Shown here: one piece after another, positions 16,801 to 36,034 of the stretch | Layout of the letters: every line of letters begins with the position of its first letter | Position numbering within the stretch: the stretch's first letter is position 1 | Origin: an uncultured Clostridia bacterium | GTDB lineage: Bacteria > Bacillota > Clostridia > Lachnospirales > Anaerotignaceae | DNA: 64,000 nucleotides | Assembly (NCBI GenBank): GCA_945868505.1 | Contig: CAMBLO010000005.1 | Coordinates: forward strand, 1 to 64,000 | Direction: 5' to 3' | The notes under the pieces: generated by a model | Told to the model about the DNA's origin: nothing | Database searches by the model: none | Seen by the model: only the letters and a program-made list of their open reading frames with translations | Made by a program: the position numbers and the translations under genes

Positions 16801-16937
16801 TGTTGTGAATCTGTCTTGTTTTTCCGTCGTTTTTCGACATTCCCCTATGCAATCTGTGGGAATTATTGGAAACGGCGGATTTTTTATTGACAGATATAGT
16901 CTTTCCCCTGTAAAATATTACAGGAAGTAAATAAAGG

Positions 16938-17037
16938 ACTTATCAAGAGTGGTTGAGGGACAGGGCCCTGTGACACCCGGCAACCGGCGGAAACGCATCG
17001 GTGCCAATTCCCCCGCAAATTTGCGGAAGATGAGATT
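16938..17037 (+). ncRNA. SAM-I (S box) riboswitch aptamer
   Basis: cttatcaagagtggttgagggacagggccctgtgacacccggcaaccgg...ggtgccaattcc...gatgaga; precedes metK. Confidence 0.9.
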
Positions 17038-18724: not shown

Positions 18725-18967
18725 ATGGATAGATGGAAAAATATCACGGAAATCCCCGTGGAACAGCCCTGCTTCGTGCAGGAGGTGCAGGGGGAATGTC
18801 GTTTGCGTTTGTTTGATCTGGGATTTTTCCGAGGCAGCCGGGTCTTGCCGATGTATGAATGTGCAGGCGGCGGTACGCGGGTGTATCGGGTGAAGGATAC
18901 CTTGATTGCCCTCAGAAATACCGATGCGGAGCGGATTGCTGTGGAGGAGGCGAGGCGGGATGGCTGA
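18725..18967 (+). CDS. feoA: FeoA domain protein (ferrous iron transport)
   Basis: Small SH3-like protein overlapping feoB; ECRLRLFDLGFFRGSRVLPMYEC...YRVKDTLIALRNTDAERIAV. Confidence 0.8.
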   Translation: MDRWKNITEIPVEQPCFVQEVQGECRLRLFDLGFFRGSRVLPMYECAGGGTRVYRVKDTLIALRNTDAERIAVEEARRDG

Positions 18968-20201
18968 GCAGAAACGACTGTGTATCGCCTTAGCGGGAAA
19001 CCCCAATACGGGAAAAAGCACCGTTTTTAATGCCCTGACGGGCTTGAAGCAGCATACAGGCAACTGGTCGGGGAAAACGGTAGGCAATGCCGTGGGGGAA
19101 TTTTCTCTGGGAAAATGGGAGGTAGAGTTGTATGACCTGCCGGGGATTTATTCCCTTTTTTCCGATTGTGCCGAGGAGTGCGCCGCCAAGGATTTTATCT
19201 GCTATGAAAACCCCGATATCGTCATTGTCATTCTGGACGCCACTTCCTTGGAGCGCAACCTGCCCTTGGGCTTGCAGATTATGGAACTGACGGACAACGT
19301 TATCTTTTGCTTGAACCTGACCGATGAAGCCAAAAAAAAGGGGATTTCTGTTGATAAAGCACGTTTGGATGAATTGACGGGCATTCCCGTTGTGGAAATG
19401 GCGGCAAGGCAGGGAATTGGATTGGCGGAACTGAAGGAGCTGCTGCTGGATGTGGCGGAGGGGCGGCGGCATATCTACCCCAAAGGACTGGATTGGGATA
19501 GCTTTGCCCCGGAAACGGAAGAGGGCTACCAAACGGCGGCATTTCAGGAAAATCGTTCCCTTGCTTTTCTGGAACGCTCCAAGGAAATCTGCGCCGAAGT
19601 GGTGCGAAAAAAAGAAGAACGGGACAGCCATACGGAACGCATCGACAAAATCATACTTTCCCCTAAAACGGGCATCCCCATCATGCTGCTGCTGTTGGGC
19701 GGGGTGTTTTGGATTACGGTGGCGGGGGCAAATGTGCCCTCCGATTTTTTGATGCAGTGGTTCAGCCAGTGCGGGGAAGTGATGCGAAGGGGGCTGGTTT
19801 CTCTGGATACCCCCCTTTGGCTGGAAAGCCTGCTGATGGATGGGGTCTGGCTGACGGTCAGCTGGGTGGTGGCTGTGATGCTGCCCCCCATGGCAATCTT
19901 TTTCCCCTTGTTTACCCTGTTGGAGGATTTTGGGCTGCTGCCCCGCATCGCCTTCAATCTGGACGGCTTGTTTCAGAAGGCGGGCGCCCATGGCAAACAG
20001 GCGCTGACCATGGGGGTGGGGGCTTATTTGGGTGCGAAATGCTTAGAACGGGGAGGAAACAGGCGGAACACCAAGAAAAATCAACAGAAAAGAATTGCGA
20101 AACAGGGGAAAATACGATATATTTTACATATAAAAGACTTTGTAGGATTTCTTTTTGATAAAAGAGATGAGATAAAGCAAGTGTCCGAAGGGAGGAAGTA
20201 A
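18960..20201 (+). CDS. feoB: FeoB ferrous iron transporter, 5' segment, interrupted after codon at 20012 by a mobile element
   Basis: LAGNPNTGKSTVFNALTG G1 motif, YDLPGIYSL, LNLTDEA; FeoB sequence ends at AHGKQALTM, then element-encoded residues. Confidence 0.9.
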   Translation: MAEQKRLCIALAGNPNTGKSTVFNALTGLKQHTGNWSGKTVGNAVGEFSLGKWEVELYDLPGIYSLFSDCAEECAAKDFICYENPDIVIVILDATSLERNLPLGLQIMELTDNVIFCLNLTDEAKKKGISVDKARLDELTGIPVVEMAARQGIGLAELKELLLDVAEGRRHIYPKGLDWDSFAPETEEGYQTAAFQENRSLAFLERSKEICAEVVRKKEERDSHTERIDKIILSPKTGIPIMLLLLGGVFWITVAGANVPSDFLMQWFSQCGEVMRRGLVSLDTPLWLESLLMDGVWLTVSWVVAVMLPPMAIFFPLFTLLEDFGLLPRIAFNLDGLFQKAGAHGKQALTMGVGAYLGAKCLERGGNRRNTKKNQQKRIAKQGKIRYILHIKDFVGFLFDKRDEIKQVSEGRK

Positions 20202-20202
20202 T

Positions 20203-21543
20203 ATGGGATTGATTAAAGCGGCATTTGGCGCTGCAGGCGGTGTTCTGGCGGATCAATGGAAAGAGTTCTTTGTGTGTGATTCCATGCCGGCCGAAGTGAT
20301 TATGATGAAGGGGTACAAAAAGGTGACCGGGCGCTCCAGCAATAAGCGAGGCGACGAAAACATTATTACCAATGGCTCCATCATTTCTGTTGCGGAAGGG
20401 CAGTGTATGATCATCACGGAGCAGGGGAAGGTTGTTGACCTCTGCGCAGAACCCGGCGAGTACAGATACGATACCTCCACAGAGCCTTCTGTATTTACAG
20501 GGAATCTGGGTGAAAGTGTGAAGGCTGTATTCCAGAATGTAGGAAAACGTTTTACCTTCGGCGGCGAAGCACCCAAGGACCAGAGAGTGTATTATTTCAA
20601 TACAAAGGAACTGACAGGGAATAAATATGGCACACCTTCACCGGTACCCTTCCGTGTGGTGGACGAAAGAGCTGCCATTGATATTGATATTTCCCTTCGC
20701 TGCTTTGGTATTTACAGCTATAAAGTGGTGAATCCACTGCTGTTCTATCAGAATGTCTGTGCCAATGTGACGGAGGTTTATACCCGTGAGGAATTGGACG
20801 AACAGCTCAAGAGCGAGCTGCTGACAGCATTGCAGCCTGCCTTTGCCAGAATTTCTGCCATGGGCATCCGTTATTCTGCCCTGCCCGGTCATACAACAGA
20901 GCTGGCAGAGGCTTTGAAAGAGGAACTTTCCGCAAAATGGAAGGATTTCCGCGGCATTGAAATGCAGAGCATTGGTATTTCCTCTGTGAAGGCCAGCGAA
21001 GAAGACGAAAAGATGATAAAGGAACTGCAGCGCAACGTTGCATTTATGGACCCTGCCCGTGGGGCTGCCCACATGGTAGGCGCCCAGGCTTCCGCCATGC
21101 AGGGTGCGGCAAACAACCCTAATGGGGCCATGATGGGCTTCATGGGCATGGGCATGGCCCAGCAGGCTGGCGGCGTGAATGCCCAGGGGCTTTACCAGAT
21201 GGCACAGCAGCAACAGCAGATGCAGATGCAGCAACAACAGATGGCACAACAGCAAGCAGCAGCACCTGCAGAGGGATGGACCTGTGCCTGCGGTGCGGTG
21301 AATACAGGCAAATTCTGCACAGAATGTGGACAGGGTAAGCCTGTGGCAGCAGAAGGCTGGACTTGCAGCTGCGGTGCGGTAAACAAAGGAAAATTCTGTT
21401 CCGAATGCGGCAGCAAAAAGCCTGCGGGAATCCCCCAGTATCGCTGTGATAAATGCGGCTGGGAGCCTGCCGACCCTACAAAGCCGCCCAAATTCTGCCC
21501 GGAATGCGGCGACCCCTTCGATGACGGAGATATCAAGGCGTAA
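20203..21543 (+). CDS. SPFH/band-7 domain protein with Q-rich linker and three C-terminal zinc ribbons
   Basis: FFVCDSMPAEVIMMKG...; WTCACGAVNTGKFCTECG, WTCSCGAVNKGKFCSECG, YRCDKCGW...KFCPECG. Confidence 0.85.
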   Translation: MGLIKAAFGAAGGVLADQWKEFFVCDSMPAEVIMMKGYKKVTGRSSNKRGDENIITNGSIISVAEGQCMIITEQGKVVDLCAEPGEYRYDTSTEPSVFTGNLGESVKAVFQNVGKRFTFGGEAPKDQRVYYFNTKELTGNKYGTPSPVPFRVVDERAAIDIDISLRCFGIYSYKVVNPLLFYQNVCANVTEVYTREELDEQLKSELLTALQPAFARISAMGIRYSALPGHTTELAEALKEELSAKWKDFRGIEMQSIGISSVKASEEDEKMIKELQRNVAFMDPARGAAHMVGAQASAMQGAANNPNGAMMGFMGMGMAQQAGGVNAQGLYQMAQQQQQMQMQQQQMAQQQAAAPAEGWTCACGAVNTGKFCTECGQGKPVAAEGWTCSCGAVNKGKFCSECGSKKPAGIPQYRCDKCGWEPADPTKPPKFCPECGDPFDDGDIKA

Positions 21544-21596
21544 TGCCTGTAAAGGACAAGGATAAGCTGTTGCACTTGAGAAGGGGAGGGAAGAAA

Positions 21597-22430
21597 ATGA
21601 AAAAACGCAGATTTTTGGCATGTTTGATGGCGGCGGCAATGACTGCTTGCGTACCTGTAACCGCAGCAGCGGCGGCAGATGAAATTCAGGTTTTTGTGGA
21701 CGGACAGAAGCTTTCCTTCGACCAGAAGCCCGTGGTGCAGAATGGCCGCACACTGGTGCCTATGCGGGCAATTTTTGAAGCGCTGGGTTCCGAAATTGAA
21801 TGGAATCAGGCGGAGAAAAAGGTCACAGCCTTTTGGGGCATCAATCGTCTGGAGCTTTCCATTGGCAGTTGTGAAATCTCCATGGGAGATGGTTCCGTAG
21901 TGACCATTGATGTACCGGCACAGGTGATGAACGGGCGAACCTTGGTGCCCTTGCGGGCAGTGTCCCAGTGCATGGGGGCAGAGGTGCTTTGGGATGGCAG
22001 CGCAAAGACCATCAACATCAACCGTCCGGCTGCCTATAACAGATTCTATCAAAATTCGGAATATTTGTTTGAATATACGGCACCGGAGGGCTTTTATGTG
22101 GCATGGGAACCGGAAGCGATGGATGGCTGTTGGCTAACCCATGAAACAGACCCTGTAAATATTGCTGTATACGGTGGGGATTTCTCCGGGGAGCTGAAGG
22201 ATTTGTTCAACTATTATTTTGAACTGGATGAGGATGCTCTGATTTATGGGGATTATATTGATGAATATTCCTTTGGTCTGGTGAGCTATCGGGATGGCTT
22301 GTATACCTTTGAGAAGCATATGCTCTACGGAGGTACGGAATATGCCATCTGTATGGACATTCCCGAGGAGCTTTGTGAAAAATATGAACCTATGATGGAG
22401 GATATTTTCAGCGGGATGATTTTTGGCTGA
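21597..22430 (+). CDS. Secreted copper-amine-oxidase-N (stalk) domain protein
   Basis: Signal peptide MKKRRFLACLMAAAMTACVPVTAAAAA; VFVDGQKLSFDQKPVVQNGRTLVPMRAIFEALGSEIEW...GRTLVPLRAVSQCMGAEVLW. Confidence 0.85.
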   Translation: MKKRRFLACLMAAAMTACVPVTAAAAADEIQVFVDGQKLSFDQKPVVQNGRTLVPMRAIFEALGSEIEWNQAEKKVTAFWGINRLELSIGSCEISMGDGSVVTIDVPAQVMNGRTLVPLRAVSQCMGAEVLWDGSAKTININRPAAYNRFYQNSEYLFEYTAPEGFYVAWEPEAMDGCWLTHETDPVNIAVYGGDFSGELKDLFNYYFELDEDALIYGDYIDEYSFGLVSYRDGLYTFEKHMLYGGTEYAICMDIPEELCEKYEPMMEDIFSGMIFG

Positions 22431-22451
22431 TTCTCATAGGAAAATTGGTTT

Positions 22452-22492
22452 GAACCTGAGGGGGCGGCATCTGACGACCGCCCCTTTTTCAT
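22452..22492 (+). terminator. Terminator
   Basis: ggggcggcatctgacgaccgcccctttttc. Confidence 0.7.
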
Positions 22493-22529
22493 TATAATAG
22501 AATTACATAGGAAAGGGGATGGAGCAGAT

Positions 22530-23393
22530 ATGGCAAAGGGCTTCTTTGATATGCTTCTGGATGAGATATTCGATGCCGATTGGAAGGGGCATCGGGGGGA
22601 GAAGCTGACGGAGCGAGAATTGAAGCTGGTGGGGTTTTTAGGGCGAAAGGGAAAGATTCTTCGGAATATTTATCTGCCGAAGGAGAAGGGGGAAACCACG
22701 GAAATTGATGTGGTATATATCACACAAAAAGGGATTTTTGTGATTGAGAGCAAGAACTATTCGGGATGGATTTTTGGCGATGAAAAAGCGACTTACTGGA
22801 CGGCAATGCTTCCCAATAAAGAAAAGAACCGCTTTTATAATCCCATCAAGCAGAACCGTACCCATTTGAAATGGCTGGGGAAATATGTGGGGGAGGAAGT
22901 TCCTTTGTTTTCTTTGATCGTATTTTCAGAGCGATGTGAATTGAAGAAGGTTACGGTAGATAGTCCGGAGATAAAAGTCATAAAGCGGGACCGCCTGTAT
23001 GCCGCAGTCCGCAGCATTTGGGATACCGCGGAGGATAAATTAGCAGAGGAACAGGTGGATGAGATATATGGGATGCTGCAAAAGATGACGGATGTTGACC
23101 AAGCAGTCAAGGAAGCCCATGTGAAAAATATCAATGCAAAGTATAAGAAGGCAGATGCCGCTGAAACAGCTTTGCAAGAAGATGTTTCGGAACCGACAGT
23201 ACAATTACAGGAGGCAGAAGAGAGCAATATACAGAAAGCAGAGGAAGCACCTGAGCCGGGTGTGGAGGAGCTGCTTTGCCCTCGCTGCGGCAGCAAGCTT
23301 GTTTTGCGTACGGCAAAGAAGGGGACCAATGCAGGGAATCAGTTTTATGGATGCAGCAGATTTCCCAAGTGTCGCTACATTCAAAACCGGTAA
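22530..23393 (+). CDS. NERD nuclease-related domain protein with C-terminal topoisomerase-type C4 zinc finger
   Basis: GRKGKILRNIYLPKEKGETTEIDVVYITQKGIFVIESKNYSGWIFG; LLCPRCGSKLVLRTAKKGTNAGNQFYGCSRFPKCRY. Confidence 0.88.
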   Translation: MAKGFFDMLLDEIFDADWKGHRGEKLTERELKLVGFLGRKGKILRNIYLPKEKGETTEIDVVYITQKGIFVIESKNYSGWIFGDEKATYWTAMLPNKEKNRFYNPIKQNRTHLKWLGKYVGEEVPLFSLIVFSERCELKKVTVDSPEIKVIKRDRLYAAVRSIWDTAEDKLAEEQVDEIYGMLQKMTDVDQAVKEAHVKNINAKYKKADAAETALQEDVSEPTVQLQEAEESNIQKAEEAPEPGVEELLCPRCGSKLVLRTAKKGTNAGNQFYGCSRFPKCRYIQNR

Positions 23394-23518
23394 AAAATTT
23401 TTGTACCTGAAAAAGCAATACTGCTTGTACTTCAACTGCCATACCACCCTCACCAAAGGTGAAAATCCCATAAGAAACGGAACCTCACAATGAAATCCAA
23501 TCCTTTAAAAATGATGAG

Positions 23519-23563
23519 ATTGACCGCAAGCTTTCGCTTTACCGGAAGGTTTGCGGTTTTTCT
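23519..23563 (+). terminator. Terminator
   Basis: gaccgcaagctttcgctttaccggaaggtttgcggtttttc. Confidence 0.65.
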
Positions 23564-23651
23564 ATGCCAATAATTGACGCATACCGTAAAAAGTGGATAT
23601 TGTTTCATCGTTCCTCTAATAGATTGATAAAAACGCAGGGAGGGGAATTCT

Positions 23652-23753
23652 ATGGCAAAATACCAAAAAATAGAGATTGTGTTGCACCCGGGACAGGTGC
23701 CTCTTTATGATTTGTTGTATGAACTATTGATGGCACAAGGACGGCAGATTTGA
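23652..23753 (+). CDS. 33-aa small ORF upstream of the recombinase (MAKYQKIEIVLHPGQVPLYDLLYELLMAQGRQI)
   Basis: Strong RBS gggaggggaattct before ATG; below the ORF-track length cutoff. Confidence 0.5.
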   Translation: MAKYQKIEIVLHPGQVPLYDLLYELLMAQGRQI

Positions 23754-23780
23754 GGAAAAGGGGGAATCGCACTGACTCGA

Positions 23781-25409
23781 ATGGCGGCAAGTGATCTGAA
23801 AAGGAATCCATGCGCCCTCTATCTCCGCCTCTCCAAGGAGGATGAAACGGGGATGGAGAGTACATCCATTGAAACCCAACGAAAGATTTTAAGAGAATAC
23901 GCTGAAAAAAATGGATTTTTTATCTACGATGAATATGTGGATGACGGGTATACGGGGACGGATTTCAACCGTCCCGCCTTCCAGCGAATGCTGCGGGATG
24001 TGGAGAATGGCAGGATTCAAATTGTAATCACAAAAGACCTTTCTCGTTTGGGGAGAAACAGCGGCAGAATCAATGTGCTGATGGATGAATATTTTCCGGA
24101 GCATCAGGTGCGGTATATTTCCGTCAGCGAAGGGATAGACACAGCGGAACGGACGGCGGCAAACAGCATTGTAGCCCCGGTGCAGAATCTGGTGAATGAG
24201 TTGTATGCAGGGGATATTTCCAGAAAGATTCAAGCAGCTTTTGATATTAAGAGGAAAGAGGGAGCATACATCAGTGCCTTTGCTCCTTATGGATACAGAA
24301 AAGACCCGAAGAATAAAAATCATTTGTTGGTGGATGAAGCATCTGGGACAGTTGTAAAGCGTATGTTTGCCATGGCAAAGGAAGGGTATAATCCCTCGCA
24401 AATTGCGGATAGATTCAATGGCGAGGGCATCCTAACACCCTCCCAATATCGGTATCATACCAACCCACAGCTTGCAACGGAGCATTTTCGTGGCGCAACG
24501 GAATGGAAAAGCACCAATATCAATAAAATGCTGCGGAATGAAATCTACTTGGGGCATACTTTGCAGGGAAAGACCTGCAAGCCCAGTTTTAAGAGCAAAT
24601 ATTGCTATGCAAAGCCCAGAGAGGAATGGGTTGTGGTACGCAATACCCATGAGCCCCTAGTGAATGAGGAAACTTGGAACATCGTACGCAAGCGGATGCA
24701 GAGCCATACCCAGAAACGGGAAAAGGGTTTTGTGAATTTATTTTCAGGATTGGCAAAATGTGCCGACTGCGGCAAAAATATGTCCACCGCAGGCACAAGG
24801 AAGAAAGGGAGCGCTGCAAACCTGAGCTGCGGCGGCTATAAGCTAGGGGGCAGAAAATACTGCACCAACCACACCATCGACTATGATGTACTATATCAGG
24901 CAGTGCTGACGGCATTGCGGGAGCAGATGCACCTATCAGAGCAGGAAAAACAGCGGCTTTTGCAGGCTTTGCTGCAGGACGAAAAACGGCAGGAGGGCTT
25001 TCCGAAAATAGAACTGGAACGCAAAATCCAATCCATGGGTAAAAAACTGGAGCAGCTTTTTGAGGATAAATACGATGGACTCATTGGGCAGGAGCAGTTT
25101 ACCCGACTGCATCAGCGGTACACCAAAGAATTGACGGAATTGGAAGAAAAACAAAGGACTTTGAGGGAGTCACAAGGGGCGAGAAAGAATTTTGCTGGGG
25201 AAAAACAAAGACATGAGCAGCTCTGCAGACGGATAGATGCCCTTGCCGATTTACAGGCATTAGATTCGGAGCTTTTATTCAAGCTGATTGAGCGCATTGA
25301 AATCCATCAGGGGGAATATATGGAGGGAGAGAAGCGGCAGCGCATCGATATCTGGTTTCGATTTCCATGCCAGCAAAAGGCCATGGAGCTTACGTTTGCA
25401 CCCAAATAA
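23781..25409 (+). CDS. Large serine recombinase (resolvase N-terminal, recombinase, zinc ribbon, coiled coil)
   Basis: ALYLRLSKEDE catalytic Ser; VDDGYTGTDFNRPAFQRML; KDLSRLGRNSG; YGYRKDPKNKNHLLVD; zinc ribbon LAKCADCGKNM. Confidence 0.95.
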   Translation: MAASDLKRNPCALYLRLSKEDETGMESTSIETQRKILREYAEKNGFFIYDEYVDDGYTGTDFNRPAFQRMLRDVENGRIQIVITKDLSRLGRNSGRINVLMDEYFPEHQVRYISVSEGIDTAERTAANSIVAPVQNLVNELYAGDISRKIQAAFDIKRKEGAYISAFAPYGYRKDPKNKNHLLVDEASGTVVKRMFAMAKEGYNPSQIADRFNGEGILTPSQYRYHTNPQLATEHFRGATEWKSTNINKMLRNEIYLGHTLQGKTCKPSFKSKYCYAKPREEWVVVRNTHEPLVNEETWNIVRKRMQSHTQKREKGFVNLFSGLAKCADCGKNMSTAGTRKKGSAANLSCGGYKLGGRKYCTNHTIDYDVLYQAVLTALREQMHLSEQEKQRLLQALLQDEKRQEGFPKIELERKIQSMGKKLEQLFEDKYDGLIGQEQFTRLHQRYTKELTELEEKQRTLRESQGARKNFAGEKQRHEQLCRRIDALADLQALDSELLFKLIERIEIHQGEYMEGEKRQRIDIWFRFPCQQKAMELTFAPK

Positions 25410-25422
25410 AACCCCACCCATG

Positions 25423-26259
25423 TGCATGGGCTTTGGGTGCAACGCGGCGGGGGTTACCGCCTGTCGTATCATCGAATCTCCCAGAGAACGGCTCATTGCC
25501 ATTCTGACGAATAACTTCGTGCCCTGCAACGGTCGGTTTCCCACGCTGATTTTGCTTGCCAGCTTCTTTTTTGCCGCCGGGAACCCCCTTGCCGCCGGGG
25601 GCTTTGTATTCCTGCTGATTGCCTTGGCGGTGGCGGTGACCTTGGGCGTATCCTTTCTGCTGAGCCGAACTTTGCTGAAGGGTGTTCCCTCGGCTTTTGT
25701 TTTGGAATTGCCCCCCTATCGTCGCCCGAAAATCGGGGATGTTATCGTCCGTAGCATGCTGGACAGGACGATTTTTGTGCTGGGGCGGGCGGTAACGGTC
25801 GCCATGCCTGCCGGGGCCATCATCTGGATTTGTCAGAATGTGGAGGTGGGCGGGTTTACGCTTTTGTATGGCTTGACAACCATATTGGAGCCCATCGGTT
25901 CCCTGATGGGGCTTTCGGGGGTCATTCTGGCGGCATTTTTGCTGGGCATCCCCGCCAATGAAATTGTTTTGCCCATCCTGCTGATGGTCTACAGCCAAAG
26001 CGGGATGCTGGTGGAGGCAGAGGGTATTTCACAGGCAGGGGCGATTTTGCAGGCCAACGGCTGGACCTTTGTTACGGCTATTTGTGCCATTTTGTTTTCC
26101 CTGAATCACTTTCCCTGTGCCACAACCCTGCTGACCATCCGCAAGGAAACGGGAAGCTGGCTCTGGACAGGTGTGAGCTTCCTCCTGCCCACATTGGTGG
26201 GCGTTTCCCTCTGTATTCTGGTAAATCTGCTTGCTTATATCGGGGGAATGATTTTTTGA
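25423..26259 (+). pseudogene. feoB: FeoB, 3' segment disconnected from start by the element
   Basis: CMGFGCNAAGVTACRIIESPRERLIAILTNNFVPCNGRFPTLI is the canonical FeoB transmembrane segment. Confidence 0.92.
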
Positions 26260-26713: not shown

Positions 26714-26835
26714 AGCTTGCTTTCATTTCCAGCCGCAGCCGATCTGCAATGAGGGCGATAAACTCTGAATTGGTGGGTTTGCCCTTATGGTTGTTGACGG
26801 TATAACCGAAGAGGGCATCGATGGCATCTACCTTG
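26714..26835 (-). repeat. 122-bp duplicate of the spo0A 3' end (distal copy)
   Basis: Identical by eye to 31279..31400; encodes [40 protein letters not shown]. Confidence 0.92.
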
Positions 26836-27185
26836 ATATATCAACGTTTTTAAGCCTTGTATGATATCGGCAATTACACCCAATAAATTAAGATTCGTTG
26901 CTGTGAACAAAAAAAGTTTATAGGTTTGGATTTTACAGTTTATTGCTCTGAACAAACTGAGTGCAGATTTTTGTTCGTTGGCTTAAAGTCTAATCTTTTT
27001 TAGATGGAAAGTCAAGGAGATAATAAAAATATGGATGTGAATGAAAAAACGATATTTTGTTAAAAAAACGAAAAAATATACCTTTTTTGCAAATTTTGTT
27101 GCCTTTTTACAACATTTTATCTGAATTTTGAATTAGATTGTCAATAGAAATTACGCACAATGTGTGTTATCATTAAATAAAGAAA

Positions 27186-27290
27186 AAAGAGGCACTACCA
27201 AAACTGCTGGCGGTTTGCCCTGAAAAAATGAAAAATTATCACAAAAGAGTAATCATCAAGTTTCCTAGGCTCGGATGATTACTTTTTTGC
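27186..27290 (+). ncRNA. Candidate small RNA ending in intrinsic terminator
   Basis: Hairpin ggcactaccaaaactgctggcggtttgcc; terminator GTAATCATC...GATGATTACttttttg; no ORF. Confidence 0.35.
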
Positions 27291-27454
27291 GTTTTTGCCA
27301 TGTTTATATCCAAGGTTGTATACCAACTTAATATCGGAAAATTATTTTATAGAATAATTTGATTTACAAGCATATTTTTGTTTATTTTGTATGTGGTATT
27401 TTTCGCAGGATTGTGTATAATATAAGTACAGAAGTTCAAACTTCTTATGTAGGC

Positions 27455-27576
27455 GTTTGTCAGAAGTGCCTGTCTAAAAAAAACTGAAGAAATTGTGAGG
27501 GGTTCGTCAGATGCACCTGTCTAAAAAAAGCTGAAGAAATTGTTGTTGAAAGGGAACTTAATTGTTCCCTTTTTCA
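27455..27576 (+). ncRNA. Type III antitoxin RNA candidate: two 47-nt tandem repeats plus terminator
   Basis: GTTTGTCAGAAGTGCCTGTCTAAAAAAAACTGAAGAAATTGTGAGGG / GTTCGTCAGATGCACCTGTCTAAAAAAAGCTGAAGAAATTGTTGTTG, then aaagggaacttaattgttccctttttc; TATAAT upstream at 27416. Confidence 0.8.
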
Positions 27577-27593
27577 TTTGTGAGGTAAAATAT

Positions 27594-28070
27594 ATGGAAC
27601 CAAAATTATTTTATATAAGAGAGAGTTATTTCACAGATAATAGTACATTTAAAAAAATGCTTGATACAGGTAATTATTCAAAGCAATCAAAAAGAACACA
27701 TTTATGTATGCTAATTGAAAGCAATTCAAATAATTTTTATATTCCTTTAAGAAATAACTTAGGGGATGATATGAGAAAATATGGAAGAATCGGGCATCAT
27801 GTTCCGTCTGAAAAAAGAAAAGATGCCGGGTTAGATTTTCGTTATACTTTAATTGTTAATGATGATAAATACATAGAATTTCAAACACAAAGTAAAATAC
27901 CTAATTCGCAACTTCGCAAAATTAAGAATGATTACGAAATAATTCAAAATGAATTTTCAGTATATTTAAATGGATTTATAAAAGCGGCAAAAAAAGGACG
28001 TATCGAGAAAGAGCCTTTATATAGAGAATCAAGTTTAATCAATTTTCTTTCTGAGTTGGGAATAAAATAA
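27594..28070 (+). CDS. Type III toxin-antitoxin toxin, ToxN/AbiQ/CptN-like endoribonuclease
   Basis: 158-aa protein MEPKLFYIRESYFTDN...KRTHLCMLIESNSNNFYIPLRNN; position directly behind repeat RNA and terminator. Confidence 0.75.
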   Translation: MEPKLFYIRESYFTDNSTFKKMLDTGNYSKQSKRTHLCMLIESNSNNFYIPLRNNLGDDMRKYGRIGHHVPSEKRKDAGLDFRYTLIVNDDKYIEFQTQSKIPNSQLRKIKNDYEIIQNEFSVYLNGFIKAAKKGRIEKEPLYRESSLINFLSELGIK

Positions 28071-28275
28071 ATTATTATATTTTTTATTCCCCATTTTACC
28101 CCAAAATCCTAGCATACAACTAAGAATTTAGAACACATCTAACATCCCTTGACTTATTCATTGTCGAAATACAATGCCCCTGAAATCAAGCAATAATCAT
28201 TGAATTTCTGGAAATGATAGGGTATAATAGACGAAATTAGATTGCGTATTATAATGCGCTTTTAGGGGTGATAGA

Positions 28276-28485
28276 TTGACACTACAACAGAAAGTAAAAG
28301 CAGCTTGTGATGTGGCTGGCATTAGTTTAACGGAACTGGGGCGCAGAATGGGAATGTCTCAAGCTTCTATTTCTCAAAGGCTGAAAACAGGTAAGTTTTT
28401 AAAAGAAGAACTAGAGCAAATGGCAGATGCACTTGGCTGTGAATATGTTTCTTATTTTAAGTTTCCAGACGGCACAAAAATTTAA
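28276..28485 (+). CDS. Small XRE/Cro-type HTH regulator (TTG start)
   Basis: AACDVAGISLTELGRRMGMSQASISQRLKTGKFLKEELEQMADALGC. Confidence 0.8.
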   Translation: MTLQQKVKAACDVAGISLTELGRRMGMSQASISQRLKTGKFLKEELEQMADALGCEYVSYFKFPDGTKI

Positions 28486-28567
28486 AGAACGCTATACATG
28501 AAAATGTATGGTGTTTTTTTATGTGAAAAATAATAATGAAAACTTTATATAAAATAATGAAAATACA

Positions 28568-28627
28568 TTGACATAATGAAATCATTATGATATATTTACG
28601 GAAACAAGCCATAATGATTTCATTATG
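28568..28627 (+). promoter_or_regulatory. Promoter with two 18-bp palindromic operators CATAATGAWWTCATTATG
   Basis: TTGACA(28568)-N17-TATATT(28591); cataatgaaatcattatg 28572-28589 and cataatgatttcattatg 28610-28627. Confidence 0.7.
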
Positions 28628-28689
28628 ATTGATGGTTTTCAAAGCATAGCAGTTTTCCCATCCATTATAGGACAAAAAACGATAGGGTG

Positions 28690-29010
28690 TAGTGAGCCGA
28701 TGCTATAAAATCACTCGCAGCCACATTTGCGCCATATCAAAGCCCGTGGTATGCGTCAGTGGGAACTCTGCCAGTGAAAACCCACAATAAACAAAGAAAT
28801 GGTGGTTGGAAGATTCAAAGCGGATATAGAGTTGATGGGATGGGTTGAATTGTCCCGCTGAAAAGCTAGGCTCTACTGATGAAAATCAGGCTCATACGGC
28901 ACAGGATGAGAGTGGACGGCTCCGAAGTGGTGATGTTATCCCCATGAAACGGGATAACTCCCAGAACTCAAGCCGAACCCACCAAAATGGTAATTTTTCA
29001 ACGGCAAAAG
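28690..29010 (+). ncRNA. Large structured RNA candidate (possibly HEARO/omega-RNA-like, unverified)
   Basis: Multiple hairpins e.g. ctgatgaaaatcag, gttatccccatgaaacgggataac, gtgggaactctgccagtgaaaacccac. Confidence 0.4.
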
Positions 29011-29041
29011 TCAAGTGTTTTTTAAAAGGAGAGTGCAAAAA

Positions 29042-29218
29042 ATGAAAAAAAGAGAATACAGAACAGAAGATTTACTTGACATTATCGCAGCGCAGAATGA
29101 AATGATTGAAGAATTACTGGAAAGAGTTGGCGAACTGGAAGATAGAATTGCTAGTAGGCGTAAACCTGCCGTTGTTGAAAATGGTGTGCTGGTTCAGCTT
29201 GAAAGATTTGTGGTTTAA
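29042..29218 (+). CDS. Small coiled-coil hypothetical protein
   Basis: ATG with gagagtg RBS; MKKREYRTEDLLDIIAAQNEMIEELLERVGELEDRIASRR. Confidence 0.5.
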   Translation: MKKREYRTEDLLDIIAAQNEMIEELLERVGELEDRIASRRKPAVVENGVLVQLERFVV

Positions 29219-29257
29219 GGATGAAATTTTAATGCAGAAAATATGTTCGTAAAAAGT

Positions 29258-29402
29258 GTTGACAACAGAACGGATGTTTGATATACTTTAGATACGGTGA
29301 ATCCGTTATGATATCTCATAACGATTACCCTTTGTGTTTAAATAATTTTAGTTTTCCACCGAGAAAGGCTATCCATATACGGCAGGGTAGCTTTTTTCTT
29401 GC
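29258..29402 (+). ncRNA. Candidate small RNA: promoter, two hairpins, terminator
   Basis: TTGACA-N17-TATACT; ACGGtgaatCCGT; GTTATGAtatcTCATAAC; ggctatccatatacggcagggtagctttttt. Confidence 0.5.
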
Positions 29403-29490
29403 GTATTTGGAGAAAAATGTAACGATTTTAAAATTCTATAAAATGTCGTGTAAATACCGAAAAATCAATGTTTTCTCGAAGCTGTTTTCA

Positions 29491-29765
29491 AAACTGAGAT
29501 TTTCCTATATGGATATAAACAATAAAAATGGAAAATCCGAAAATTAGAAAATCAAAAACAAGCTATGAACACATTGAAAAATAAGGGTTTTTTCATGGTT
29601 GATTCATAAACTGAGATTTTTCTATATGGATATAATATTAGTGTTCAACGACCATTTTAAAAGCTGTGGACACAATCAGGCAAAAAAAACACCTTAAAAA
29701 GCCCGAGAAATCAACACTTTTATAAATTGGTTCCAAAAATTGAGATTTTCCTATATGGATATAAT
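29491..29765 (+). repeat. Three dispersed ~28-bp repeats aaactgagattttcctatatggatataa
   Basis: Copies at 29491, 29608 and 29735. Confidence 0.8.
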
Positions 29766-29856
29766 ATATATGTGCGAGTATCTAAGCAGGTGAATCACCT
29801 GAACAAGTGAGTACAAAGCACCTGTTTTTATGTACATTCAGCATTTTTTATGGTTT

Positions 29857-30012
29857 AAAAACGTTGATTTTTAGGGATTTTTAACAGTTTCTTTAAGTCG
29901 TCTAATGAAGGAAATGAATAATGCATAGTTTTTCGGGACACCTGACGAATTATCACTTGTAAAAACATTGATTTTTAGGCATTTTTAACAGTTTCTTTAA
30001 GTCGTCTAATGA
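29857..30012 (+). repeat. Two ~52-bp direct repeats (period 104)
   Basis: aaaaacRttgatttttaggSatttttaacagtttctttaagtcgtctaatga at 29857 and 29961. Confidence 0.85.
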
Positions 30013-30232
30013 GGGGAAGCATTCTAAATTGCTACTAGCAATATAGGAACATTTCTAACCGACTGTCAGTCGCTTAGAGCAGTTATCGGAGGTCACTGAC
30101 AGTGACTTTGAAATGATGGGAAAGAGTATTTTCTAAATTCCAAACAGCAATACAAAAGGAGGCAATCCGTCTGCGAATGATGGGTATATATACCCTTCTC
30201 GCAATTTTACACTGCCCTCAAATATAAGAATA

Positions 30233-30565
30233 GTGGGTATGTATAAATTATTAGCGTCTGGTGGCTCTGGTCATAGTACAGTGGTCACTTTAAAAATCGG
30301 GAATACAACACGCAGTATTTATGTTAGGGATAAAAATGGAGATTATTCTGTTTTTAATATTAAAGGAGCATTAACGGATATCCAACCCGGAGCAAGCGGA
30401 GAGGTAACCACAATAGAAGAAGCTATGTTTGCGGCGATTTATTTGGATAGTGGTCATAGAATTGGAACCAGTGATGCCGAGAGAGAATTGACTTTAAAAA
30501 TGAAAATTACAGATGGCAATAAAGGATATAGAACAAATTATATATTCTATTATATTGAGGAGTGA
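30233..30565 (+). CDS. Hypothetical protein (likely 3' remnant of a longer gene)
   Basis: Protein-like reading frame extends upstream without ATG (IPNSNTKGGNPSANDGYIYPSRNFTLPSNIRIVGMYK). Confidence 0.45.
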   Translation: MGMYKLLASGGSGHSTVVTLKIGNTTRSIYVRDKNGDYSVFNIKGALTDIQPGASGEVTTIEEAMFAAIYLDSGHRIGTSDAERELTLKMKITDGNKGYRTNYIFYYIEE

Positions 30566-30574
30566 GGCAATTCA

Positions 30575-30769
30575 ATGTTTTTGTATCTGAACAAAGATAA
30601 ACGAATTACAGCATATGATGATTCATCAACCAGAGAACAAATGAAAGAAGAAATTAAAAAAGAAATGGGCGTTTGGTATGACGGTGACTTTGATTTCTTC
30701 ATGGGAGAGGATAAGCCGGGGATGCAGAAAGACTTCTACTTGAATGAGGATAACACTATCCGTAGGTGA
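30575..30769 (+). CDS. Hypothetical small protein
   Basis: MFLYLNKDKRITAYDDSSTREQMKEEIKKEMGVWYDGDFDFFMGEDKPGM; adjacent to upstream gene. Confidence 0.4.
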   Translation: MFLYLNKDKRITAYDDSSTREQMKEEIKKEMGVWYDGDFDFFMGEDKPGMQKDFYLNEDNTIRR

Positions 30770-31097
30770 AAAAGGCTTTCATGTTACGGATGTAATTGTT
30801 GACGGTGGTTGCTGTAATAGGTTTGCCTAAATCTGTTCTGTTTTCGGGATAGTTATAGCATCTTGAATTATCATTTGTTACAACTTCATATTTTCCCCTT
30901 GTTTGTAAAAACCGAATATATTTAATAATAATAGTAGGAGTGATTTTATCAACGTTATCAATTCCTTCATCCCTTGCCCAGCGTTCAAAAAGTTTAAGGG
31001 TTTGTTCATAACTTCTGATGGTTTTTCGGGCTAGATTTTTGCTTTTGCAAAATAAAAGATAATCTTCAATGTGAAAATAAAGTTCTGATGGCTGCAT
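30756..31097 (-). pseudogene. Truncated tyrosine recombinase (N-terminal SAM-like domain only)
   Basis: YLLFCKSKNLARKTIRSYEQTLKLFERWARDEGIDNVDKIT...TVNNYIRNMKAFFTYG*; no catalytic domain. Confidence 0.75.
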
Positions 31098-31276
31098 AAA
31101 ATAAACCTCCTAGTTTAATAAAGTTGTTGTAAAAAGCACAGCCTATAAACTAAAAGGTTTATTGTCATGAGCAATAAAAATTTATTGGGGTGTAAAAATA
31201 AAAATGTGTAAAATTACACTAAATTATCAATGTTGAGAATAGCAGAAAGCGTTGATATTTCGGCGTTTGTCAGGTT

Positions 31277-32068
31277 TTAGCTTGCTTTCATTTCCAGCCG
31301 CAGCCGATCTGCAATGAGGGCGATAAACTCTGAATTGGTGGGTTTGCCCTTATGGTTGTTGACGGTATAACCGAAGAGGGCATCGATGGCATCTACCTTG
31401 CCCCGGTTCCATGCCACTTCGATGGCGTGTCGGATGGCCCGTTCCACACGGCTGGGGGTGGTGTTGCATTTCTTGGCGATGGAAGGATACAGCTCCTTCG
31501 TAATATAATTCAGCACATCCATGTCGTTGACGCTCATGATGATGGCCTCCCGCATATAATGATACCCGCGGATATGGGCGGGTACGCCGATTTCATGGAG
31601 AATATTTGTGACCTTTGTTTCCAAATCGTATGCGGCAGAATTACCTGCAGCGGGAGCAGCAGTTCCTGTTTTCAGCAGGGGCTTCTGTTCCTGCATGAGC
31701 TGGCGGATACGCTGGGTGAGGGCATCCATATCAAAGGGCTTCACCATGTAATAGCCTGCCCCCAAATCCAGTGCCTTCTGTACCACCTTGTCCTGACTGA
31801 GGGCGGAAAGGATGATAGTGACAGGGCGGTCGGCTTCTTCCACCTTTTGCAGCCGTTCCAAAACGCCCAGCCCGTCCAAGCGGGGCATGATGCCGTCGAT
31901 GATGGCAACATCGGGGTGGGTATCGCGGATTTTGTTCATGGCATCAATGCCATCCATAGCCACAGCCACCACAGTGATATCTTCCTGTTTATTCAAATGA
32001 TCGACGATGATGTCGCAAAAATCCTTATTGTCGTCTGCCAGCAAAACTTTTATTGTATTTTGATTCAA
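31277..32068 (-). CDS. spo0A: Sporulation transcription factor Spo0A
   Basis: [16 protein letters not shown]...[17 protein letters not shown]...C-terminal [39 protein letters not shown] start with ggaggg RBS. Confidence 0.96.
31279..31400 (-). repeat. 122-bp duplicate of the spo0A 3' end (in-frame copy)
   Basis: Identical by eye to 26714..26835. Confidence 0.92.
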
Positions 32069-35808: not shown

Positions 35809-35924
35809 AAAAGAGAAACAGAGGTTGTTTTTGAGGCAGGATAAGTCTTGCAAATTTGTTTTATTTTTGATATACTCACTCTATATAGCATAAAAAACAG
35901 TTACGGTCTGACAGACCAAAGAAA

Positions 35925-36034
35925 AAATGGCAAAGCCGCTGAAAGGCGGTGACGCAAAGCTGAGTGTCTACAGCAGAAATATCTGCCATGATCGACTGGC
36001 TGCAGGTTCTTGAAAAAGGATTTGCAGCTTTTTT
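35925..36034 (+). ncRNA. Cyclic di-GMP-I (GEMM) riboswitch with overlapping terminator
   Basis: ggcaaagccgctGAAAggcggtGACGCAAAGCtgagtgtcta...ccatgatcgactggctgcagg; gctgcag...tgcagcttttttatt. Confidence 0.88.

Follow-up and report, generated by a model that had tools for sequence, protein, structure and literature searches.

Two direct repeats, an intrinsic terminator and an open reading frame for a 158-residue protein follow one another, all on the forward strand, in the 64-kb stretch of clostridial DNA analysed here (64,000 nucleotides in all; hereafter ‘the window’). Do they form a type III toxin-antitoxin locus, in which a repetitive RNA restrains an endoribonuclease, and, if so, to which family does the locus belong? 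A sequence-only reading had proposed a ToxIN/CptIN-like system. The type III part of that proposal is supported by toxin family, predicted fold, RNA covariation and conserved gene order; the family, on the other hand, is TenpIN, according to the NCBIfam model NF047358 (E=3.7e-19). The score lies below the equivalog cut-off for TenpIN, yet the four lines of evidence agree on type III, and we consider it very probable that the module is a TenpIN-family toxin-antitoxin system for which an RNA-caged RNase mechanism can be proposed.

The layout had been described correctly in its main elements. The -10 promoter box of the antitoxin-toxin operon, TATAAT, is present at 27416–27421, and a box occupies the matching position before the repeats in most relatives. 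The -35 box that precedes it is weak, and a consensus promoter scan did not call a promoter at 27416–27421; TTGAC-like -35 boxes are found at the equivalent place in several relatives. A short 5′ hairpin, AGAAGU(UCAA)ACUUCU, lies ahead of the first repeat (27430–27445). A stem of varied sequence occupies this position in most relatives and is absent from a few; across the relatives the best stem has a mean length of 7.2 bp (5.1 bp for shuffled sequences), while the window hairpin taken by itself is not significant. The two direct repeats (27451–27496 and 27498–27543) are the pair that had been placed at 27455 and 27502, with the register shifted: non-identical copies of 46–47 nt, identical at 40 of 46 positions, with a spacing of 47 and in the same orientation upstream of the toxin. 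Against these 40 matches, 300 dinucleotide shuffles of the 1.1-kb region yielded a 46-mer self-match of 30 at best, and no second 46-nt tandem (spacing 40–69, at least 36 matches) occurs elsewhere in the 64-kb window. The intrinsic terminator (27548–27573; 10 pairs, a 6-nt loop and a T tail) separates the repeats from the toxin gene, which runs from an ATG at 27594 to a TAA ending at 28070 and is preceded by a GAGG ribosome-binding site at 27582–27585. Directly past the toxin stop, an inverted repeat (28058–28091; 87% complementary, 4-nt gap) may be a further terminator.

Each repeat lies within an RNA unit for which covariation points to an H-type pseudoknot with two stems, S1 and S2. In unit 1 (27448–27493), S1 pairs 27451–27455 with 27467–27471 (AGGCG/UGCCU) and S2 pairs 27460–27463 with 27484–27487 (UCAG/CUGA). 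Among 23 distinct sequences of this unit, 96.1% of cells are paired, against 14–39% when the partner is slid; cells in which both sides have changed number 30, where shuffles average 9.7, and such changes affect three pairs in S1 and two in S2. In unit 2 (27494–27541), S1 pairs 27498–27502 with 27514–27518 and is broken by a G.A at its fourth pair, and S2 pairs 27507–27510 with 27531–27534; here 97.4% of cells are paired among 19 distinct sequences, against 21–47% when slid, with 15 double-change cells compared with 4.5 in shuffles. These controls are to be read with the caveat that the shuffles keep relatedness in and that sliding favours the structure of origin. The covariation nonetheless includes direct swaps of A-U for G-C at several pairs, within both stems, and a pairing register one column off gave no support. 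The minimum-energy fold of the leader has a z of -1.0, which we do not count against the structure because minimum-energy folding cannot model pseudoknots.

A search of Rfam at gathering and permissive thresholds returned no antitoxin family for these units; elsewhere in the window, Rfam reports a SAM riboswitch and a c-di-GMP-I riboswitch, at 16937–17036 and 35919–36007. A covariance model of both units, run against 392 genomes of the class, recovered the window and two further genomes (G154 and G225), in each case beside a TenpN gene or its remnant: a model built from RNA only thus converges with the toxin search on the same loci. One other match (G393, E=1e-3) lies in AT-rich coding sequence, away from any toxin, and was set aside as chance.

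How widely is this arrangement kept? A scan of GTDB genomes yielded 28 loci, mostly in Lachnospiraceae-type gut and rumen genomes, with toxins up to 74% identical to that of the window. Relatives on phages and viral contigs are 45–48% identical, and more distant ones come from plasmids of Bacillus and Listeria and from a small Vibrio phage. In its own genome the window toxin is the sole TenpN-like gene, and the gene is absent from 57 other genomes of the family. In a toxin tree of these relatives and of NCBIfam-scoring TenpIN toxins, the window belongs to a clade of 27 members (support 100/99) that is separate both from the Bacillus/Listeria branch and from the toxins that pass the NCBIfam cut-off. 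The order repeat-repeat-terminator-toxin is kept in nearly all of the approximately 28 loci, and nearly every intact one has the same anatomy: a TATAAT box, in most cases a short 5′ hairpin, a pair of non-identical units (43–50 nt), a terminator and the toxin. The terminator-like stem, with its T tail, sits at the equivalent place in nearly all loci and is unrelated in sequence. Distant TenpN relatives (Bacillus plasmids, Listeria and Vibrio phage records) keep the same order; in three loci (L004, L005 and L007) the layout is shared, the repeat sequences are unrelated and the spacing is 49–52 nt, and in another (L006) the two repeat copies are visible by eye only. Flanking genes are not conserved among the sampled relatives: they are either phage genes or various unrelated genes of the host, cobalamin genes among them, so that the operon behaves as a free-standing cassette. 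One such cassette (L035) has a tetrapyrrole methylase gene on one side and a cbiJ/cobK fusion gene on the other, in an apparent cobalamin operon.

In the window, the cassette lies within a 4.4-kb integrated element (26714–31399). The locus had been linked to a ‘spo0A island’: the linkage to spo0A stands, and the island can be refined to a small integrated element at the 3′ end of that gene. Its left boundary is a displaced copy of the spo0A 3′ end (26714–26835, reverse strand), an att-type direct repeat that is 100% identical over 122 bp to the 3′ end of the intact spo0A at the right boundary (31278–31399, reverse strand). A genome of the same genus (G010) has the empty site, with the flanks joined in one 586-column alignment at 76.8%. 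On the strength of the 122-bp repeat and this empty site, sequence comparison identifies the module as cargo of an integrated element that would regenerate spo0A on insertion. Near the right boundary lies a truncated tyrosine integrase of 113 aa (30756–31097, reverse strand) that has only the N-terminal SAM-like domain (PF02899, E=8e-9); in another genome of the genus (G009), a full-length tyrosine recombinase of 333 aa, with an N-terminal part similar to the 113-aa remnant, lies beside spo0A. A second spo0A 3′ copy is also seen in G009 and a partial copy in G011; in this genus, spo0A is apparently a hot spot for integration. A stretch of the element that has no clear genes contains three 88-nt direct-repeat copies (29431–29764; 66–70% identical, sharing a TTGAGATTTTCCTATATGGATATAA-like sequence in their 3′ halves) together with a 59-nt repeat in two copies (29856–30018; 93%); these may represent promoters, iterons or small RNAs. 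A feoB-like gene (18906–26259) is apparently split by an insertion with a large serine recombinase (23781–25409; PF00239/PF07508), about 1 kb away from the element.

The truncated integrase means that the element may be a fossil, and, together with the weak -35 box, it invites the view that the toxin-antitoxin module itself is a degenerate relic that is no longer made or active. Decayed modules do exist elsewhere: L053, with a frameshift; L054; L046; and the G225 locus, with one repeat and a broken toxin. In those decayed loci, however, the toxin is broken, unlike that of the window, where the open reading frame is full length, the conserved residues are intact, the ribosome-binding site and terminator are present and every S2 pair is kept in both pseudoknots. 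The module thus looks intact even if its element is not, and we regard an inactive relic as improbable. In the G225 module (L096; C1:378500–379106), which lies next to a fragment of a TnpB-like zinc-ribbon protein, repeat loss goes with toxin breakage: one RNA unit is left, and TenpN is frameshifted. An intact TenpIN-type module remains our reading.

The family of that module is decided mainly by the toxin. NF047358 aligns with residues 10–155 of 158 at 69.3 bits, against an equivalog cut-off of 90, and no match to Pfam, PADLOC or other NCBIfam families was found at E up to 10. A single-sequence search of the PDB returned chance antibody matches only, ToxN not being among them, and neither a CptN model nor the CptN structure 4rmo was matched by sequence; when a profile of the toxin family was used instead, the best PDB sequence match was a weak one to ToxN (4ato, E=0.09). 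The structure prediction that the sequence-only reading had called for bears out its claim of a ToxN/CptN fold. An AlphaFold2 model based on an alignment of 30 sequences, with phage and plasmid rows left out, has a pLDDT of 93.3 and a pTM of 0.88 (pLDDT is 39 from the single sequence). Searched against the PDB with Foldseek, its top five matches are, in order, AbiQ (4glk), ToxN-Bt (4ato), CptN (4rmo), ToxN-Pa (2xd0) and ToxN-Ec (7d8o), at probabilities of 0.99–1.00 and TM scores of 0.52–0.56: these are all five solved type III toxins, and the PDB matches include no solved TenpN structure. MazF/Kid proteins come next (TM ~0.3, rmsd 6–8), which reproduces the structural neighbourhood reported for type III toxins (PMC5086642). 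Six residues are invariant in the family and intact in the window toxin (R34, P51, R53, G79, D81 and L148). Three of them (R34, P51 and R53) lie near the ToxN catalytic positions (Tyr29, Lys33, Thr52, Ser53 and Lys55). It is from the fold that we predict the toxin to be an RNase of the ToxN/MazF-like type.

Membership in ToxIN or CptIN, as first proposed, has some points in its favour: fold and layout are common to ToxIN, CptIN and TenpIN, the top fold matches include CptN (4rmo) and ToxN (4ato), and CptI has units of 45 nt in two repeats. We nevertheless judge it very unlikely, in that the toxin sequence matches the TenpIN model only, and its relatives grade into TenpIN-scoring toxins through the Bacillus and Listeria homologues. 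Repeat length speaks in the same direction. ToxI units are 34–36 nt long and are repeated 2.8–5.5 times, whereas the window has two units of 46–48 nt, and the figures published for TenpI are ~50 nt and 2.1 repeats (PMC12373285). The earlier remark that only two repeats are present is therefore right as a count and not as a deficiency: two units of ~47 nt are the TenpI norm.

Comparison with individual systems sharpens this placement in TenpIN. With the Photorhabdus luminescens TenpIN/NF047358 family, the window shares the toxin profile, two RNA repeats of ~50 nt, the terminator and the order of parts; it differs in its sub-cut-off score and in the fixed G.A within S1 of unit 2. Clostridial TenpIN loci that score with NCBIfam have toxins 17–25% identical to the window toxin and a different repeat motif. 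The TenpN-like loci of Bacillus and Listeria plasmids are closer in the toxin (35–37% identity) and have two repeats 49–52 nt apart and a terminator; their repeat sequences, however, are unrelated, and some of their toxins have a C-terminal extension. CptIN of Eubacterium rectale (4rmo) resembles the module in fold (TM 0.52–0.53), in having two pseudoknot units of ~45 nt and in its Lachnospiraceae-type hosts, but it belongs to another sequence family and forms a heterotetramer. ToxIN/AbiQ systems (2xd0, 4ato, 7d8o, 4glk) share the fold (TM 0.53–0.56), the operon layout and a pseudoknot antitoxin, and differ in toxin identity (12–15%), in their 34–36-nt units and in their higher copy number.

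The least credible alternative is a type II MazF/PemK-like toxin with a protein antitoxin, such as the 69-aa HTH protein encoded after the toxin gene (28276–28485), and with the repeats as a cis leader: MazF/Kid do come next in the fold search, but far more weakly than the type III toxins, and the HTH protein, which we rejected as the antitoxin, has no tblastn match in the relatives’ loci, where RNA units, terminator and toxin stay together.

Another observation to emerge from the TenpIN relatives concerns the two RNA units, which are not equivalent. The fourth S1 pair is standard in unit 1 of 20 of the 23 sequences and is G.A in unit 2 of all 19 (L027–L054); in a locus with three units, the toxin of which is broken (L054), the G.A is again in the last unit. 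Mean identity across loci is 85% for unit 2 and 81% for unit 1, while the units within one locus are 78% identical, less than the same unit across loci, which argues that they are not being kept alike. As the last unit has this invariable G.A in its stem 1 and evolves apart from unit 1, we tentatively raise the possibility, itself somewhat doubtful, that the units are specialised, each perhaps with its own role in processing or in the complex. Such an asymmetric antitoxin would contrast with ToxI, the repeats of which are interchangeable. In one of the decayed loci (L046, 5802–5935), a hairpin-like insertion of ~38 nt is present in loop 2 of repeat 1, and the C-terminus of the toxin is altered.

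The mechanism that we propose is modelled on known type III systems (PMC5086642, PMC4627078). One promoter would give a transcript that mostly ends at the terminator, so that a small RNA made up of two pseudoknot units would be in excess, and occasional read-through would supply the toxin mRNA. The toxin would be expected to cut the precursor in its A-rich linkers, and the resulting ~47-nt units would then occupy the toxin’s active site in a closed RNA-protein complex. If the supply of antitoxin were to drop, because the element is lost or a phage shuts off transcription in the host, the toxin would be freed to cut A-rich mRNAs and growth would stop, so that the element might be kept in the population, phage infection might be aborted, or both. 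Processing, complex formation, toxicity and biological role are all inferred here by analogy. As to the role, the suggestion of phage abortive infection or element maintenance draws on other TenpIN and CptIN systems, and either is possible: Photorhabdus TenpIN aborts coliphages and phages of Pectobacterium and Serratia (PMC5086642, PMC5377504, PMC5449768), whereas CptIN stabilises plasmids and did not abort the phages against which it was tested.

The window thus holds a member of the known TenpIN (type III) family, in a gut-bacterial branch that had so far gone unlabelled; this branch is a coherent group and adds about 30 loci to what is the least studied of the type III families. Phage-defence surveys that rely on Pfam, PADLOC and Rfam, all of which miss the branch, would not count it. 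The aligned RNAs provide a covariation-supported pseudoknot for TenpI, together with a specific asymmetry between its units, and the host element places a type III module at spo0A, the master regulator of sporulation.
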